A DNA stretch of 64,000 bases from assembly GCA_001312405.1 (NCBI GenBank), contig BBDR01000005.1, positions 186,001 to 250,000 on the forward strand, given 5' to 3'. Positions within the stretch are counted from its first letter, which is position 1; each line of letters begins with the position of its first letter. Positions 37,962 through 45,796 of the stretch are shown in pieces. The position numbers and the translations under genes were made by a program. The notes beneath the pieces were generated by a model that saw nothing but the letters and a program-made list of their open reading frames with translations, was not told where the DNA came from and ran no database searches. The stretch is from Clostridium sp. NkU-1 (lineage in GTDB: Bacteria > Bacillota_A > Clostridia > Lachnospirales > Lachnospiraceae).

Positions 37962-39918
37962 CTATTTGACCTGATAGATCATGATACGGTCCCTGCTATG
38001 TAATTCCTGCTGGAAATATCCGTTTTCCCCATTTACTTCCAATACTACCTGTCCAGTCACGTTTTTAAAATCCAATCCGGAATATTCCAGCATGTCCATG
38101 AGATAATATGGCTGGTGATCCGGCTTTAAGGGAAGGGTCAGGGGGTTGTCATTTAAAAAGAACGTGATCTTTCCCTTGCTTTCACCGGTCTCTTTTGCTT
38201 CCCCATTCCCTGCCCGGGAATCTGTGCTGTTGGAGCCGCATTAAGAAAGCTTAAATTGGCTTCCTCCTGCCTCTCCACTCCGGCATTCTTTTCCGGTTCT
38301 TCCTTTGTTTCAGCTGCTGTGCTTTCTATTATAATGCTGTCACCGGATTTCAGAGGCACATCCTCCTTCACCTCTTCGCCGTTTACCAGTACTCTGTTCC
38401 CTTCTGAAAGCTCTGCCACATCGGAAAGCATAGCAGAAGCGTTCTTTCCACGGCTGGCGGGCACAAATACGATCCAGTCCTCTGTATTTACCGGATCAGA
38501 AAGCTGTGTTTCTTCTCCATTGAGTTTTAATACAGACGGCTCTGCTTTCTCTCCATAAAAAACCGTTCTCTTTCCATTGACACTTACCACCAGGTTCTGG
38601 CCGGAATGGCCGATCATATCCTGATAATTGTAGCCGTTCATCATCAGAACATCCATTACGGTAAAACTGCCGCTCCGGAAGACCTTTGCCGGCCTGTCAT
38701 TTAAAGTAATGCGGAAGCTGTCATTGACAATGCTAAAGCCTGCGGATATGACGATTCCAAGAGGAGTGGCAAATTCCGGATTCTCAAGGTCATACTCGTC
38801 TGAATAGGCATTGATTTTAAAATTGTTGCCGGCAATGGCGACCCGTTTCGGGTCAATTTTTAAATGCTCTACGATCCCTTCCTTTAAACCGGAAAGCCTG
38901 CTTCCTCCCCCTGCCAGAAAGACTGCGACGGCACCCCGCCGTTTACCTCCAGGATTTTTGCTGATATCTCCTCGCAAAGCCTGGAAGATGCTTCCTTGAT
39001 GCACTCAAAGATGGATTCCCGTGTGATGATTTGTTCAAATCCCAGAATATCCGTAAAATGAAGCTCCTCCCTTTCGTCAATCTCTGATTTGATTTTTTTC
39101 TGCGGTATCAAAATCCACCAGATACTCCTTCATAATGGTCTCTGTGATCTCATCTCCGGCAAGAATTGCATGGTATAGCCGGTCACGCAGCCATCCCTGC
39201 AGACCGCAATATCAGAGGTTCCTGCTCCGATGTCCACCATTGCCAGGTTTAACAGACGGATATTCTGAGGAATCGCTGCATTGATCGCTGCAATAGGCTC
39301 TAAGGTAAGGCTTGACACCTCCAGATCGATTTTGTGCATGGCCGCATAAAGGCTTTCCACTACCTCTGTGGGAAGAAAGGTCGCAATGATGTCAGCTTTT
39401 AAGACCCGTCCATGATGGTCGATCAGATTGGATATCATGTAGTTGTCCAGGTAATAGCGGCTTACCGTATATCCGACCAGATAAAACTGCCGGTCTGATT
39501 CCCTGCCTTCTCTATTCATAAATAATTTTTCTGCTTCACTGATTGCACCTGCCTCTAAGCGGCTGACAGATTCCGCATCGATCTTCTGAGGCCTGGGAAG
39601 CTCCATCTCATAGGTCACGCTTTCGGTCCGCAGCGCTCTTCCGGCAGCAGCTACACTGACCTTATCAAGCCTGCACCCCAGCTTTTTCTCCAGCCTGTCC
39701 TTGACCTGGCCTGCGATCTTTGCCACCTGGTCGATATCCTCGATCTGGCCGTCAATCATCGCCCGTTTCGTGTGCTCGGCTCTCTCTATGGCAACGATAT
39801 GAATTCTGTCCCCATCAGGCATGCCCACCATGCCGATGATGCTCCGGGTTCCAATATCCAGAGCAAAAACAGCCTGATCCGGAAGTGTGTCTGTCAAAAT
39901 ACTATGTCTGTTATCCAT
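37962..39918 (-). CDS. FtsA-like actin-fold protein with long C-terminal extension (frameshifted)
   Basis: An actin-like ATPase of the FtsA/PilM group. N-terminal phosphate-1 motif AVFALDIGTRSIIGMVG; phosphate-2 in MVDIGAGTSDIAVCRDG; adenosine motif in AVFLAGGGSRLSGLKEGI. After the actin core (about 1-400) comes an extra region of about 250 residues. It includes ubiquitin-like beta stretches (DRPAKVFRSGSFTVMDVLMM), a Glu/Ala linker and a final domain ending ELHSRDRIMIYQVK. The total of about 652 residues is much longer than FtsA (about 420). Frames shift near 39160, 38950 and 38190. Probably a cell-division or envelope-assembly factor; the exact role is unknown. Confidence 0.8.
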
Positions 39919-40028
39919 AAATAATGCCCCATTCTCTTGTATATTTGTCTATTATTCTACTAGTATAAACAGCCTCCGTCAATCGAATAAAGGAAATTTT
40001 TGCGGAAAAACCACGTAAACTGCCGCAG

Positions 40029-40071
40029 AAAAACAGGCCGCAGCTTAAGGATTTACGCTGCGGCCTGTTTT
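40029..40071 (-). terminator. Strong terminator after cotJC
   Basis: A perfect 15-base stem, AAAACAGGCCGCAGC with GCTGCGGCCTGTTTT, lies immediately after the cotJC stop. It ends the cotJABC operon. Confidence 0.92.
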
Positions 40072-40073
40072 CA

Positions 40074-40591
40074 TTAGCACTGATTTCTAATATCAAAGCT
40101 TGGATTGAATGCGTAGAAATTCCTGCTGTCTAAATTATCCTGGGTGATTCTTAAAGCTTCCCCAAACCTCTGGAAATGAACGATTTCCCGTTCTCTTAAA
40201 TAACGAATCGGATCACAGATTTCAGGATCTGTTACAACACGAAGAATGTTGTCGTAAGTACTCCTTGCCTTCTGCTCTGCGGCCATATCTTCCACAAGGT
40301 CAGTAATAGGATCTCCCTTTGACTGGAATTGGTTGGCATTAAACGGGATTCCGCCTGCAGACTGCGGCCAAATTCCTGTGGTGTGGTCAATGTAGTAAGG
40401 GCCAAAGCCTGATTCCACCACCTGCTCCGGCGTTAAGTTTCTTGTCAGCTGGTGAACAATGGTCGCTACGATCTCCAGATGTGCTAATTCTTCCGTTCCA
40501 ATATCCGTCAAAAGTCCTTTACATTCCTTATAAGGCATGGCATAGCGCTGGGAAAGATAACGCATGGAGCGCCCATTTCTCCATCAGGTCC
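40074..40591 (-). CDS. cotJC: cotJC 3' part (manganese-catalase-like spore coat protein), separated from its 5' part
   Basis: This piece encodes the bulk of CotJC from GGPDGEMGASMRYLSQRYAM onward. It is a ferritin-like four-helix protein with metal ligands of the manganese catalase type (TEELAHLEIVATIVHQL; DMAAEQKARSTYDNILRVV; REREIVHFQRFGEAL). There is no start codon or ribosome site for it; immediately upstream of GGP is an in-frame TAA and then unrelated sequence. The missing N-terminus lies 2.63 kb away at 43310-43216. One T is missing at about 40572 (frameshift within GASM). Joined to the 5' part at the GGACC core and with that T restored, it gives exactly 203 codons (202 residues), the normal CotJC length. 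Confidence 0.93.
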
Positions 40592-40695
40592 ACCTTAAGT
40601 CAGAAACAGATAACCAGATTCCATACCTTTCCTTAAGCTCATAATTAAACCCATTTACCCATATATTATAGAAACCTTCCTTTTATGAGGCTCCC

Positions 40696-41357
40696 ATGCA
40701 GACAATCTCTAAAAAAACGCTGACAGATATTATGCGCCACAACGGGGTCACCGTTTTTACCTATACAATCCATTATCCCCATTTTACCACCACATGCAGC
40801 TCCACCTCTGCCCAGAGCATCAATAAGTTTTATGAATTCCAGTCCAGACAGACTGAGAACTACTGCCGCACCGTGCTTTACCCCCAGGCCGTTGATCAGG
40901 CAATGTTCGTACAAAAAAATCAGTTTCCCTTTAACAGTCATGAATTTTTATCAGTCTATCAGATCACATACAATAATGACTGCACCACCAGCCTCTTTAC
41001 CGATCAGTATTCTTATCTGGGAGGAGCCCATGGAACCACAACCCGGGACTCCCAAACATGGGACTTTTGCACCGGAAAACAGCTGGGGCTCATTGATTTC
41101 TTCCCTGGCAATCCTCAATTTACGGATTATATTTTTAAAGGTATCCAACAGCAGATAGAAGAAGAGATGAAAACATCTCCTTCCCAATTTTTTTGATGAC
41201 TATGCGGCGCTCCTGCGGGGCAATTTTAACATCAATGGATTTTTTTGCCAAACCATTGGGAATTGTCATCTACTATCAGCAGTACGATATTGCTCCCTAT
41301 GTAAGAGGAATCCCGGAATTTTTCTTTCCTTTTCAGGACTGCAATCCAAATGCCTGA
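40696..41357 (+). CDS. DUF3298/RsiV-like protein inside the cotJC element (frameshifted)
   Basis: A protein of about 220 residues with the DUF4163-DUF3298 arrangement found in RsiV anti-sigma factors and PdaC-type proteins. N-terminal ITYNNDCTTSLFTDQYSYLG, then GAHGTTTRDSQTWDFCTGKQ, the hallmark of DUF3298. The C-terminal AKPLGIVIYYQQYDIAPYVR appears after correcting indels near 41190 and 41245. There is no transmembrane segment or signal peptide, so it is not a classical membrane anti-sigma factor; the usual RsiV N-terminus is absent. Start 40696 has GAGG upstream. A GC-rich perfect hairpin (arms CCTGGCCGG/CCGGCCAGG, 41368-41397) follows as terminator. Confidence 0.8.
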
Positions 41358-41367
41358 CCTTGATCTG

Positions 41368-41397
41368 TATCCTGGCCGGCCCAGGTTCCGGCCAGGT
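41368..41397 (+). terminator. GC-rich hairpin after the DUF3298 gene
   Basis: Nine-base perfect arms CCTGGCCGG and CCGGCCAGG lie 11 bases past the stop codon. The T tract is weak. Confidence 0.6.
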
Positions 41398-41454
41398 TGT
41401 CCCCCCCCATCTTGCCGGCTCCCTCCATATTTGGCCTGTCCTCTCCCTCCGTTA

Positions 41455-41613
41455 TCAGCCTGAAGAGGTTATTCTTCTAAATCCCATGGATTCCATCATC
41501 TTATCCTGGATCATCAATGCAATTTCCCTGCGTTTTTCCTCTGGCAGAGAATCCATAAGAACATTTTTCCCGTCAATTTCCACGTAATTTTCGATCCTTG
41601 GTTTTTTGTTCAT
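41455..41613 (-). CDS. 52-residue protein of the cotJC element, candidate recombination directionality factor
   Basis: A small soluble protein: MNKKPRIENYVEIDGKNVLM, then DSLPEEKRREIALMIQDKMM, then ESMGFRRITSSG. The C-terminal half is a charged amphipathic helix. Start 41613 has GGAGGAG at ideal spacing. It is divergent from the recombinase gene (86 bases between the start codons) and is transcribed in the same direction as cotJC. Large serine recombinases need a small partner protein to excise; partners such as SprB of the SPbeta phage are about this size. Position and size make it the natural candidate, but I see no sequence evidence for that function. Confidence 0.75.
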   Translation of the reverse strand: MNKKPRIENYVEIDGKNVLMDSLPEEKRREIALMIQDKMMESMGFRRITSSG

Positions 41614-41698
41614 ATTTCCATCTCCTCCCTGGTAAAATGTATGTGACACGGATTGTACTTGTTTCCTGATGTTTTCCAGGTACAGCCGGAAAGAGGGG

Positions 41699-43163
41699 AT
41701 GGATTTTGAAAAAATGATACACCGGAAATCGGGGCCGCTTACATTCGCGTCAGCACCAATGACCAGACGGAGCTTTCTCCCGATGCGCAGCTGAGGGAAA
41801 TAAAAAAAAGCAGCAAAAGCAGATGGGATCTTAATCCCGGAAAAATTTATTTTCATTGAAGAAAAAGGGGTCAGCGGACGCCGTGCCGATAACCGGAAAG
41901 AATTCCAGAAAATGATTTCCATTGCCAAATCACAGCCTTCTCCCTTTCAGTATCTCTATCTCTGGAAGTTTTCCCGCTTTGCAAGAAACCAGGAAGAGAG
42001 CATGTTTTATAAAGGCGTTCTCCGGAAAAAGTGCGGCGTGACCATTAAAAGCGTATCCGAACCCATTATGGAAGGCATGTTCGGCCGTCTCATTGAAAGC
42101 ATCATCGAATGGTTTGATGAATACTATTCCATCAACTTATCCGGGGAAGTCACCAGGGGCATGACGGAAAAAGCTTTAAGGGAAGGCTATCAGGCCTCCC
42201 CCTGCCTGGGGTACCGTGCGGTGGGGGAAGGAAAGCCTTTTCTCATTTATGATGAAGAATATAAGATCGTGGAATATATCCACCAGTCCTATCATGATGG
42301 CATGGATCTGTCTGCCATCGCAAGGAGTGCCAATGAACTGGGATTTTTGACCAAAAGAGGAAACAGATTTGACCGCCGGGCGGTTGAACGCATTTTAAGA
42401 AACAAGTTTTATGACGGGATCGTCACCTGGAAAGATATCTCCTTTCATGGACAGCATGAGACCAGAGAAACGGTGACATCGGTTTTTAAAGAGAACCAGA
42501 TGCGGCTGCAAAGGGAATACAGGCCCGGGAAACGCCGGGAAGTGTCCGATTGCAAGCATTGGGCTTCCGGCCTCTTAAAATGCGGGTACTGTGGGGCAAG
42601 TCTTGTGTTCAACAAAGCTCCTGATACGAACCGCCATCCCAGCTATTTCCAGTGCTGGCGTTATGCCAAGGGATTTCATAAGGAATCCTGCAGCATTACC
42701 GCAAAAAAAATGGAGGGGCTTATTATAGAATCTCTACGCAATGCTCTTTCCTCCGAAGATATGAAATACAATTATGTAAGAGAACCTGTTTCCGTAACAT
42801 CTGATGAAAAGAAGAATATACAGGCAGCCATCTTAAGGATCACTCATAAAAAACAGCGGATAAAAGACGCTTATGAAAATGGAATTGATACGCTGGAAGA
42901 ATACAAAGCTGGAAAAAAAGCGCCTTGAAAAGGAGCAGGAAGAGCTTGAGAACCGTTTAACTGATTTAAACAGCTGCCCTGGCCGTGACAAGACCGCTGA
43001 TAAGATCCAGCTGGCATCCCGGATTCAAAATGCCTGTGACATCATCTCCGATCCAGGTGTGAGTAATGAAATAAAAGGAAATGCCCTAAGAAGTGTTGTA
43101 AAAAAAATTGTTTATGATAAACAGGAAGGAAAGCTGAAATTCTTCTATTATATCTCCTTATGA
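41699..43163 (+). CDS. Large serine recombinase of the cotJC element (frameshifted)
   Basis: A site-specific recombinase of about 487 residues. The N-terminal resolvase domain has the nucleophile Ser in AAYIRVSTNDQTELSPDAQ and the arginine motif in LYLWKFSRFARNQEE. The recombinase domain (PF07508 type) follows at about 160-260 (ALREGYQASPCLGYRAVGEG; NRFDRRAVERILRNKFYDGI). A zinc ribbon CGYCGASL...CWRY...C follows, then a C-terminal coiled coil (GIDTLEEYKAGKKRLEKEQE). Indels at A runs near 41712, 41815 and 42918. Start 41699 (MDFEKNDTPEIG) becomes in frame with the resolvase domain after restoring one A. It is opposite in direction to cotJC and ends about 50 bases before the right att core. 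Confidence 0.92.
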
Positions 43164-43172
43164 CCTTGTAAA

Positions 43173-43230
43173 AGGACCATGCTGCAGGCTTCCTGATTAT
43201 ACGGCACTGCAGTATGGTCCTCCATACTGG
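43173..43230. repeat. Inverted repeats at the right attachment site of the cotJC element
   Basis: AGGACCATGCTGCAG (43173-43187) and CTGCAGTATGGTCCT (43207-43221) are complementary with one G-U position; the second contains the GGTCC crossover core. Overlapping it, CAGTATGG and CCATACTG (43211-43230) form a second perfect 8-base inverted repeat around TCCT. The symmetry around the core is expected for a serine recombinase binding site; the first repeat may also end recombinase transcription. Confidence 0.75.
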
Positions 43231-43310
43231 CTCATAATAAAACTGGCAATCTTGGGATTGGGAGTCGTAATATTTACCGGATATTGTAATCTCTTTTCAT
43301 ACCTCCACAT
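43197..43310 (-). CDS. cotJC: cotJC 5' part (37-residue truncated frame)
   Basis: It begins MWRYEKRLQYPVNITTPNPK, IASFIMSQYGGP, the invariant start of CotJC proteins, then continues only five residues (YCSAV) into the intervening element before a TAA at 43197-43199. The ATG at 43310 overlaps the stop of cotJB (TAATG), as expected for the cotJABC operon. In cells where the element is in place only this peptide would be made. The cotJC portion proper is 43310-43216. Confidence 0.93.
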   Translation of the reverse strand: MWRYEKRLQYPVNITTPNPKIASFIMSQYGGPYCSAV

Positions 43311-43576
43311 TAGCCGCACACTCCTTCCCATGGCCATGGATCATTGATCCAGGTCCAGTAATTCTCATCCATGACTCCATCAACCATCAGGGGGCCGCAC
43401 TGCTCTTCATAAGCCTGCATTGCCTGCTGCCGCAGATCAGCCACATAGAAGTAATAGTTTAATGCCTCCTGATCGTCCGGATGAGTGTCAAGATACAAAA
43501 CCACATCATCCATTGCAAAGCTGGCTTCATATACCTGCCTTAACAGCATATCACAATCAACATTATAACCCATCAT
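43310..43576 (-). CDS. cotJB: Spore coat protein CotJB
   Basis: A protein of about 88 residues, intact frame and normal length. Family features: QVYEASFAMDDVVLYLDTHP, then DDQEALNYYFYVADLRQQAM and the C-terminal YWTWINDPWPWEG. It is needed with CotJA and CotJC for assembly of the inner coat. The ATG at 43576 overlaps the TGA of cotJA (TGATG) and its stop overlaps the cotJC start, so all three are translationally coupled. GTG at 43585 is an alternative start. Confidence 0.93.
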   Translation of the reverse strand: MMGYNVDCDMLLRQVYEASFAMDDVVLYLDTHPDDQEALNYYFYVADLRQQAMQAYEEQCGPLMVDGVMDENYWTWINDPWPWEGVCG

Positions 43577-44414
43577 CACTGGCACCCCCCCATAATAAAT
43601 GGTTTACTCAGATCCGGGAAGATGGTTCCCATGCTCAGGGCCGTATCCATCGGATAAACCTGCTGCCAGCACTGCCATGGAACATATGCCATTCCAACTG
43701 GAAACTGATCGATATTTTCGGCTGGACAAGGAGCTGGAGCCGGCATACCGGGGCACTTGACCGGAGCGGTACATGTCGGCATTTCCGGACACTTTATAAA
43801 AGCGGGGCTTGTTGCCATATTCGGACATTTCATGGGCATTGCCTCCTTTACTTTTTCCCTGCATTTTTCCGGCATTGGGCAGGCCGGCATTTCCCTGCAT
43901 TTTTCCGGCATGCATTTTTCTGGCATCGTGCGGGCTGGCATCTCTCTGCATTTTTCCGGCATTGGGCAGGCTGGCATCTCTCTGCATTTTGCTGGCATGC
44001 ATTTTCCGGCATCGGGCGAGCTGGCATCACCATGCTTTTTTCCGGCATGCACCTTTCCGGCATCGGGCGGGCTGGCATCTCCCCGCTTTTTTCGGGCATT
44101 GGACATAACAGCACTGGCTGGCAATTCATGGGCATGGGTGCTGCCTTGGTTTCAGATTCACCTCTTGTGTCTGAACACCTTGGTCTTTTTGGCGGCATCC
44201 ACGGGCAGGGACCTGCGGCCATATCCTGTTGCTTCATAAGTATGGGTTCTGCACCGGGTTCTGCGGATTTTGCAGGACCTGAGCCAAGGGGCATATCAGG
44301 GCGGATTACCGTACCAGGGCTTGCAGACATATCAAGCCCCATGGCATATTCCCAGCCGGCCGAGCCGGTGCCGGTCATATAACCGGGACACCATTGCTTC
44401 GTATAAGAATCCAT
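43576..44414 (-). CDS. cotJA: CotJA-type spore coat protein with long Cys/Pro/Met repeat region (one frameshift)
   Basis: The C-terminal 60 residues are CotJA: MAYVPWQCWQQVYPMDTALS, then MGTIFPDLSKPF, the family signature. Ordinary CotJA is about 70-90 residues; this protein is about 279. The first 110 residues are Gly/Met/Pro rich (YTKQWCPGYMTGTGSAGWEY). Residues 110-200 are made of repeats close to PMPEKCREMPA and PEKCMPEKC, each with a Cys. An A is missing near 44005 (GGAAAATGC), after which the correct frame reads CMPAKCREMPACPMPEKCRE. Start 44414 has AAGGAGT. The cysteine density suggests disulfide cross-linking in the coat. Confidence 0.85.
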
Positions 44415-44453
44415 AGGATGTATGACTCCTTTCGCTATTGAAAGTTTCTAATA

Positions 44454-45796
44454 TCAATCTATGAAAGGAATACTCTCTTGTGCAGGGCCTGCTGAAATTT
44501 TTCCATTAATTTCAAAGGAAGATCCGTGGCAAGGGCATTCCCAGCGCTTATCATACCGGTTCCATACCAGGCGGCAGCCCATATGGGGGCAGTTTACGGC
44601 TCCCTTCATGGTTCCTGCCGAAAGTCCCTTTACCGATTGCATGCCATGGGAAATCAGGGTACCGGCGGCAGCCTTCAAATGATGCCTTCTGGGGGAAAAC
44701 ACTTCATCATAGGGTGTTCTCCTTCCTGTTATCTGGGTACTTAATATTTTGGCTGCCACCATGGAGGAACTCATACCCCATTTTCCAAAGCCTGTAGCAA
44801 CGTACCAGTCCGGCCTCAGGGACGAAAACGGACCAATATAGGGAATTCCATCTAAAGTCATGCAATCCTGGGCCGTCCATCTTCCAATTTCTTCTGTCCC
44901 CGGAAACAGATGCTCTCCTGCACGTTTCATGGTAGAAAAGGGATTATCCTTTGGCGCTTTTCCTGTCCTGTGGCTTCCATATCCCAAGAGAAGCTTATCG
45001 CCGGCATTCCGGAAGGAATATGCCCTTTCGTCAATTCCAAGATACATTCCTTTTAAAGAATTGACCGGCTCAAGCTCCAGGACATAGCTTTTTTTCCTGA
45101 TACATTTTTGCAAAATAAAATCCCGGCACATTGACAAAGATAATGAGAAGCAAATACCACTTTTTCTGCCTTTACCACCCCTTTGTCCGTCACGACTTCA
45201 TGTCCCTGAACCTTAAGGACCTTTGTCCGCTCAAAAACCGTAAGGCCTGCAGATATATCTCTTAGAAATTCCAGAGGATGAAACTGAGCCTGTCCGGTAA
45301 AACGAACTGCTCCATGCACAGAAAAAGGAAGCCCGGTCTCCCTGACAAAGGAAGCCGGAAGCCCAAGCCTGGCAGCCCGCTCAGCCTCTCTTAAAAGGAC
45401 TTCCGACTCCTGAACCGAATACAGGTATGCATCCGTCTGTTCATAATGGCATTGTATGGAATAGCGTCTGATGAGTTTTCCATACTCATCTACTGCCAGC
45501 TGGTTTGCCTTTCCATACAGCCTTGCCGTTTCCTCTCCCATGGTGCGTGCCAGCTTTTCGTAGATCAGATTATGCTGGGATGTGATCTTTGCCGTTGTAA
45601 ATCCCGTCTGTCCGCTTCCTATGCGGTCTGCTTCCAGCACCACCACATGAAGCCCATGTCTTTGCAGATAAAAGGCAGTGAGTATTCCTGCCATTCCGGC
45701 TCCTATCACCGCTACTTCTGTCCGTTTGTTCCCTGTCAAAGAATTACGACCGGGAATTCTGGCTGATTCTGTCCAGATTGATTTCATTCTTTCCAC
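44454..45796 (-). CDS. FAD-dependent oxidoreductase with C-terminal Rieske domain (frameshifted)
   Basis: A protein of about 447 residues. The N-terminal DAO-type fold binds FAD: VAVIGAGMAGILTAFYLQRH. Middle: SGQTGFTTAKITSQHNLIYE and, near the end of the FAD domain, YIGPFSSLRPDWYVATGFGK. The C-terminal Rieske [2Fe-2S] site is CPHMGC with CPCHGS (C-x-H and C-x-x-H), complete. A missing C near 45135 and an extra A near 45095 shift the frame; corrected reading gives SHYPFVNVPGFYFAKMYQEK. The substrate is unknown; similar proteins occur widely in clostridia and bacilli. It is immediately upstream of the cotJ operon on the same strand, with its own ribosome site. Confidence 0.87.

Follow-up and report, generated by a model that had tools for sequence, protein, structure and literature searches.

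A minimal element carrying its own serine recombinase divides the coat gene cotJC and is predicted to be excised in the sporulating mother cell

Introduction

Sporulation-intervening elements interrupt a sporulation gene that is rebuilt by recombination, and the described systems closest to the locus reported here are skin in sigK of C. difficile, gin in gerE of Bacillus cereus ATCC10987, yin in yabG of Clostridium botulinum and SPbeta in spsM of Bacillus subtilis. We analysed a 64-kb stretch of DNA (hereafter the window), whose source is likely a spore-forming relative of Lacrimispora. Within it, an element of 2,629 bp, measured core to core, interrupts the coat gene cotJC at codon 32, in a Gly-Gly-Pro (GGP) motif. 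With a probability of roughly 0.87, we read this DNA as a minimal skin-like element, predicted to be excised by its own large serine recombinase (LSR) in the sporulating mother cell, rejoining cotJC in frame at GGP. This reading is the best supported: the element is conserved across the genus, both gene halves and the LSR are under purifying selection, the parts join in frame, a candidate directionality factor lies behind a mother-cell-like promoter, and one relative has an attP junction.

In C. difficile, a 72-residue recombination directionality factor (RDF), CD1234, is under the control of sigma-E and SpoIIID and limits excision of skin to the mother cell (PMC5025042). There, skin combines an LSR, CD1231, with a small RDF whose gene lies behind a mother-cell promoter, and its excision rebuilds a sporulation gene; the present element has an LSR and a candidate RDF behind a mother-cell-like promoter, and its excision is predicted to do likewise. 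The two differ in the gene interrupted and in content, with 19 genes in skin and three in the window element. The 72-residue CD1234 is reported to lack database relatives, and the small open reading frame (ORF) found here encodes 52 residues. Moreover, skin is missing from some C. difficile strains (PMC5025042), whereas the codon-32 split occurs in 17 of the 25 genomes of the genus that we sampled.

Like the present element, gin is not phage-like, and it carries a serine recombinase, GirC, with a factor, GirX; its rejoining falls within a shared sequence of 9 bp (PMC5595907). At 28.6 kb, with 31 genes and three recombinases, and described in this source from some B. cereus and B. toyonensis strains (PMC5595907), gin differs from the element here, which has one recombinase and, with two exceptions among the 15 copies measured in the genus, a length of 2.5-3.4 kb. 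The element in yabG, yin, also uses a serine recombinase, has a predicted RDF of 53 residues and has been observed as a circle; unlike the near-minimal, genus-inherited element here, it is a prophage reported from one strain (PMC10747680). Finally, spsM, which holds SPbeta (SprA/YokA, SprB/YotN), is rebuilt in sporulation (PMC4191935), and the LSR described below matches YokA. In contrast to the element here, SPbeta is a whole prophage, and the small ORF of the window has no credible match among PDB sequences. We place the element with skin, gin and yin, set apart by its small size, by not being phage-like, by apparently being ancestral to the genus and by lying in a gene with three sites. Judged by the papers listed, no report of an interrupted cotJC was found in the open-access literature searched, with most subscription journals lying outside that scope.

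The element and the in-frame join of cotJC

All coordinates are positions in the window. The 5' part of cotJC (43216..43310, minus strand; MWRYEKRLQYPVNITTPNPKIASFIMSQYGGP) is coupled to the end of cotJB (43310..43585, minus strand; Pfam PF12652, E 3.5e-30), comprises codons 1-32, ends in QYGGP and meets a stop soon after, inside the element. The 3' part (40074..40594, minus strand; Mn_catalase PF05067, E 9.5e-35) runs from codon 30 to the stop, starting GGPDGEMGA, and has no normal start. Between them lie the LSR gene (41706..43163, plus strand), to which comparison with the nearest genome examined, G001, assigns a TTG start and three homopolymer indels; a divergent 52-residue ORF (41455..41613, minus strand), the candidate RDF; a conserved 34-bp block (GAAACAAGTACAATCCGTGTCACATACATTTTAC; 41632..41665, minus strand) holding a mother-cell-sigma-like promoter, AACA-N16-CATACATT, aimed at the small ORF; and, as cargo, a frame-broken PdaC/DUF3298 (RsiV-like) ORF (40696..41357, plus strand) that has 219 residues in G001. 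The LSR, the small ORF and the DUF3298 gene are the recognised genes of the window and G001 elements; no phage structural or lysis genes were found in either, so by this standard the element is not a prophage. No Rfam family reached its gathering score within 39800-44600.

Comparison of the two cores gives GGAGGACC at attL (codons 30-32; 43216..43223, minus strand) and GGTGGACC at attR (40587..40594, minus strand), with GG(A/T)GGACC common to both junctions (43223-43216 and 40594-40587). Among 18 elements compared, GGNGGNCC, the Gly-Gly-Pro codons, is present at both ends in 17. Within one genome, attL and attR often differ at third codon positions, so that the same protein would result wherever in the core the crossover fell in those 17 elements. 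Reading passes in frame through the join in 17 of the 18 elements, the exception being the window, an agreement beyond chance. Once joined, cotJC has an open frame of 202-203 codons in all 12 single-split genus genomes besides the window and of 211 codons in G152 and G046. The elements measured in 15 genus genomes and the window are 2.5-3.4 kb long, apart from G007 (5.1 kb) and a 9.3-kb array in G019.

G001, a single-contig assembly 94% identical to the window here, carries the same element with an open LSR gene (485 residues) and an open DUF3298 ORF, and its cotJC parts join to 202 codons and a stop with no one-base gap. The window has a one-base gap just inside the 3' part, owing to which the join as it stands ends in a stop after 57 codons. 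In-frame joining at a short shared core, as in elements of the skin, gin and yin kind, therefore holds for the window only if this gap is an error. An alignment of 36.7 kb between the window and G001 shows 85 indels that shift the frame in the window; of the 81 that are 1-2 nt long, 56 fall in homopolymers. Since indels are this abundant and mostly homopolymeric, the frame breaks look like sequencing errors. A full-length protein database entry of the 485-residue LSR type, P0001, comes from an intact reading frame and shares 369 of 372 and 82 of 85 residues with the two longest frames of the window LSR. An earlier note on this DNA had described cotJC as split by a recombinase element of about 2.63 kb containing an LSR, a small divergent protein and a DUF3298 protein, all of which agrees with the parts, ORFs and domains located here. 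Its shared junction, GGACC, is present within the slightly longer core, and its proposal of an in-frame join after one correction holds in G001 but not for the uncorrected window. As a separate observation, many window genes, including an ftsA-like gene, are frame-broken by short, mostly homopolymer indels, and the assembly resembles uncorrected long reads.

The recombinase and the distribution of the split

With its Resolvase, Recombinase and Zn_ribbon_recom domains, the enzyme is a large serine recombinase, the type carried by sporulation-intervening elements. R15, S17, R91 and R94, which we take to be the catalytic residues, are invariant. A profile of the LSR matched only YokA and a YokA-YotN fusion among PDB sequences, YokA presumably being SprA and YotN SprB; among 50,697 phage records, there was one match at E <=1e-50, 35% identical.

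We compared 25 genomes of the genus, and an extended set of 41 that adds 16 genomes chosen for the LSR. An LSR relative at E <=1e-60 occurs in 17 of the 25, and in 15 of these 17 the cotJC part of codons 1 to 32 adjoins it. Of the 25 genomes, 17 have the codon-32 split in the first cotJC copy (cotJC1), counting G002 and G017, where the 5' part is absent from the assembly and element DNA precedes the 3' part (the G002 contig stops at the core, and the G017 LSR starts at a contig end). One further genome is split only at codon 66 (G006), one is ambiguous (G008), four have cotJC1 whole (G003, G011, G020 and G021), and this copy was not found in two of the 25 (G015 and G018). Independent single-contig assemblies with the split include G001, G009, G010, G024 and G025. 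The split is not peculiar to this strain.

Beyond the genus, in an even sample of 298 family genomes, mostly one per genus, the LSR was found at E <=1e-120 in 18. All 16 LSR genomes outside the genus have a cotJC part broken near codon 32 (G063 yielded the 3' part alone). Elements outside the genus can be large, at about 9 kb (G046), 36 kb (G050 and G253) and 87 kb (G061), while that of G152 is about 3 kb. A scan of named genomes confirmed at least 528 stretches, of which the best 79 loci were kept; 65 of these 79 have cotJC halves cut near codon 32 within the DNA examined, with both halves at 17, the 5' half only at 21 and the 3' half only at 27. A cotJC part is also present at 8 of 15 viral loci that have this LSR type, and for this reason the ancestor of the element was probably a prophage integrase.

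Selection and inheritance

cotJC is a sporulation-specific gene, and both of its parts are kept here; its C. difficile counterparts belong to the sigma-K regulon (PMC3789822). We estimated omega as NG86 medians, leaving unused any pair with a synonymous divergence (dS) outside 0.05-2.5, and for cotJC1 leaving aside G024 (near-identical to G023), the twice-split G005, G007 and G016, G046, G152 and the window. The joined cotJC1 gave 0.025 (11 sequences, 43 of 55 pairs usable) and its 5' part alone 0.031 (31 of 55 pairs, maximum 0.196), and the intact paralogue, cotJC2, gave 0.031 (13 sequences, 61 of 78 pairs). Values were 0.115 for cotJB (14 sequences, 62 of 91 pairs), 0.075 for the LSR (14 sequences, 20 of 91 pairs), 0.106 for DUF3298 (13 sequences, 28 of 78 pairs) and 0.27 for the small ORF (14 sequences, 36 of 91 pairs, maximum 0.97). 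Judged by these ratios, the split cotJC1 is constrained as strongly as its intact paralogue, with purifying selection indicated on both halves and on the LSR.

Distances among LSRs and among cotJC2 sequences are correlated (Mantel r 0.80, a value that none of 9,999 permutations reached; 13 genomes, without G024 and G012, which has no cotJC2), indicating that inheritance of the element follows the host in the genus. On a midpoint-rooted host tree of one 3.2-kb locus, in which some nodes are weak and G008 sits on an odd long branch, the whole-gene states form two nested clades; the split therefore seems to be the ancestral state, from which a whole gene was regained. G003 lacks the LSR, and behind its whole cotJC1 come the promoter block, the small ORF, the DUF3298 gene and what is left of the old 3' part, now truncated; the small ORF is altered at two of its four best-conserved positions. 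I read G003 as a natural control, in which the orphan parts decay after the whole gene returns.

The small ORF and its promoter block

The 52-residue ORF is present in all 15 assembled codon-32 genus elements checked, in the window and in many larger relatives. An AlphaFold2 model of the protein (predicted local distance difference test score, pLDDT, 88.9) has two strands and one helix. We regard it as a candidate directionality factor that would permit excision. Searches gave one weak PHROG match of unknown function (E 0.0039) and no credible profile match among PDB sequences (six hits, E 0.02-0.99).

Of the 34 columns in the block upstream of this ORF, 30 are invariant across 15 rows, whereas the spacer beside it has 4 such columns in 40; the block's count falls to 23 of 34 once the divergent G007 is added. 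The block's AACA-N16-CATACATT is close to mother-cell promoters described in C. difficile, where that of spoIIID is ATA-N16-CATATATA and CATATTAT is termed a canonical mother-cell -10 box (PMC3789822). We found AACARGTACA-N10-CATA at 84 of 225 loci (1.87 Mb), in 35 different contexts where about 0.03-0.06 would be expected by chance, a count that applies to overlapping loci chosen round these elements and is not genome-wide; the window has one occurrence against 0.03 expected. Every one of the 35 contexts just precedes a small ORF. In 31 contexts, including L063, this belongs to the codon-32 family, and in four (L115, L116, L137 and L139) to a second small family that lies beside the codon-66 recombinase and has no similarity to the first by BLASTP (E 0.69).

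Candidate excision products in relatives

In the tandem array of G019, an internal junction consists of the left arm, GGAGGGCC and the right arm, that is, an attP, with the codon-30 base of attR and the codon-32 base of attL; the LSR units compared in the array are mutually identical. Such a sequence would require site-specific joining, or an assembly that absorbed circle reads. The size of the array is uncertain because it contains a duplicated cotJB and one N. In G002, one contig begins at the core, ends where attR and attP would diverge and overlaps the next contig by 95 bp, and we infer that the contig end reflects graph branching. At L215 of G002, extra partial cotJC copies, codons 61-109 and 134-198, adjoin the 3' part. 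The pattern of a joined site is matched by six of the 25 genus genomes: the four with a whole gene, G006 and G008.

Proposed mechanism and alternative explanations

On the skin-like reading, the LSR would act on attL and attR, with the 52-residue protein as the directionality factor enabling excision. The promoter block would be read by sigma-E or sigma-K, and excision would thus take place only in the mother cell, which does not pass on its DNA. The excised circle would be lost, and CotJC, a manganese-catalase-like coat protein, would then be made from the rejoined gene. As with skin, the germ line would keep the element because the cell that cuts its DNA dies.

Several observations weigh against this reading. 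A second, full-length cotJC is present in the nearest relative and in 24 of the 25 genus genomes, and rejoining of cotJC1 may therefore be dispensable. In G021, an LSR of 45% identity sits elsewhere and cotJC1 is whole, and 14 of the best 79 named LSR loci have no cotJC part within the DNA examined. The attL core of G013 has CT in place of CC. The 52-residue ORF matched no known RDF family in Pfam, NCBIfam, PHROG or PDB sequences; the promoter block has a short -35 box and a -10 box that would suit either sigma-E or sigma-K; and a CATAYA box is absent before 19 of the 47 small-family ORFs of viral and named loci. Finally, a G008 contig joins both cotJC parts, but one extra base shifts the frame, the contig end is error-rich and the only LSRs in this genome are distant (<=31% identity), so the joined contig is weak evidence of excision. 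The skin-like rebuilding of cotJC put forward in the earlier note is nonetheless supported by conservation, selection, the in-frame join, the promoter and the attP of a relative. That note had also looked to related genomes for an uninterrupted cotJC, which four of the genus provide, and had named a second complete copy as one half of what would count against it; this half was found in relatives.

The second cotJC, the cotJC part at 8 of the 15 viral loci, and the large elements that related LSRs accompany at this codon outside the genus (cotJC parts about 87 kb apart in G061 and 36 kb apart in G050 and G253) would also fit a parasitic mobile element that uses cotJC as its attB, with rare, unregulated excision and a host that relies on the intact paralogue. 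We consider this unlikely: the constraint on the split cotJC1 equals that on the intact paralogue, 10 of the 41 genomes show no whole copy, LSR and host distances agree, the promoter block of the small ORF is conserved and mother-cell-like, and in G003 the 3' part decayed where the whole gene came back. A permanently broken cotJC1, with the 3' part translated alone into a shortened protein, could draw on an in-frame ATG in that part, preceded in G001 by AAGGAGG about 13 nt upstream. This is highly improbable, as the 5' part is conserved too (omega 0.031), the GGP codons upstream of the ATG are kept at attR in 18 of 18 elements, and G023 and G024 have ATA at that position, although the next candidate, a TTG, could still serve as a start; these comparisons speak against a 3' part translated on its own. 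That the split is an assembly error of the window, as its wealth of homopolymer indels might suggest, was rejected and is scarcely credible, with the same split in independent assemblies, five of them single-contig. We likewise rejected a plain pseudogene, given the purifying selection on the split cotJC1.

Three recombination sites in cotJC

cotJC was found only in pieces in 10 of the 41 genomes, G012 and nine outside the genus, and nine genomes have a copy in three pieces (G005, G007, G016, G073, G119, G127, G188, G196 and G235); in several, the pieces lie on separate contigs, and whole copies could be missing from assemblies that are incomplete. An LSR of 530 residues, which over a short stretch shares 21% identity with the codon-32 LSR, belongs to the codon-66 element of G006. 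In this element, the small ORF is preceded by the same promoter motif as the codon-32 small ORF. Its cargo includes a sigma-factor gene and a subtilase that is nearest to the Csp germination family, yet below the cut-off. Across the codon-66 gap in G005, G006 and G007, reading continues as GTEE / ELAHLE or LAHLE, as judged by eye. A codon-136 element (L147, 9493-15434) carries a third LSR, of 539 residues, 21% and 26% identical to the other two.

We lean towards a broader view, in which the Lachnospiraceae cotJC would be a multi-site DNA-splicing gene, with three distantly related LSRs at codons 32, 66 and 136, of which those at codons 32 and 66, if not all, come with a small-protein gene under the same mother-cell promoter. 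In some species, the coat protein would then be made only once two or three pieces had been joined at sporulation, and the Lacrimispora codon-32 element would be a stable, genus-old part of the sporulation programme. With three sites, cotJC would amount to a bacterial coat gene that undergoes programmed DNA splicing. In the sources consulted, gin and yin occur in some strains only and are either large or phage-like, and the benefit of such elements to the host is unsettled. A near-minimal element kept for about the age of the genus, with a constrained recombinase, makes domestication testable by comparison, and the element offers a candidate compact pair of recombinase and directionality factor.

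Cargo of related elements and neighbouring genes

Codon-66 elements lie at 1212-6753 of L115 (G006) and 1592-7336 of L116 (G007), and their cargo includes sigma/anti-sigma-like genes. The codon-136 element of L147 carries, between the cotJC parts, a transporter-like gene set, presumably of the tripartite tricarboxylate type. Many genus elements, such as those at L123 (G019) and L138 (G002), have before attR a further ORF of about 53 residues (including KPETFxNHWETGKFLGPNTLRYEEN), which has no Pfam or NCBIfam match and was not found in the window, G001, G007, G009, G010 or G012. The 5-kb codon-32 element of G007 (L116, 8121-9416) encodes a LysM and GH18 protein that we take to be a spore cortex-lytic enzyme of the SleL/YaaH-like type. 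Beyond cotJB in the window lies a cotJA-like gene (43576..44414, minus strand), named from its position. It is frame-broken into ORFs 43848-44414 and 43576-44124, and a single ORF of 364 residues stands at the equivalent place in G001. Its long Met/Cys/Pro-rich repeats, of the MPEKCREMPA type, occupy 43860-44136 and are followed by a CotJA-like end.

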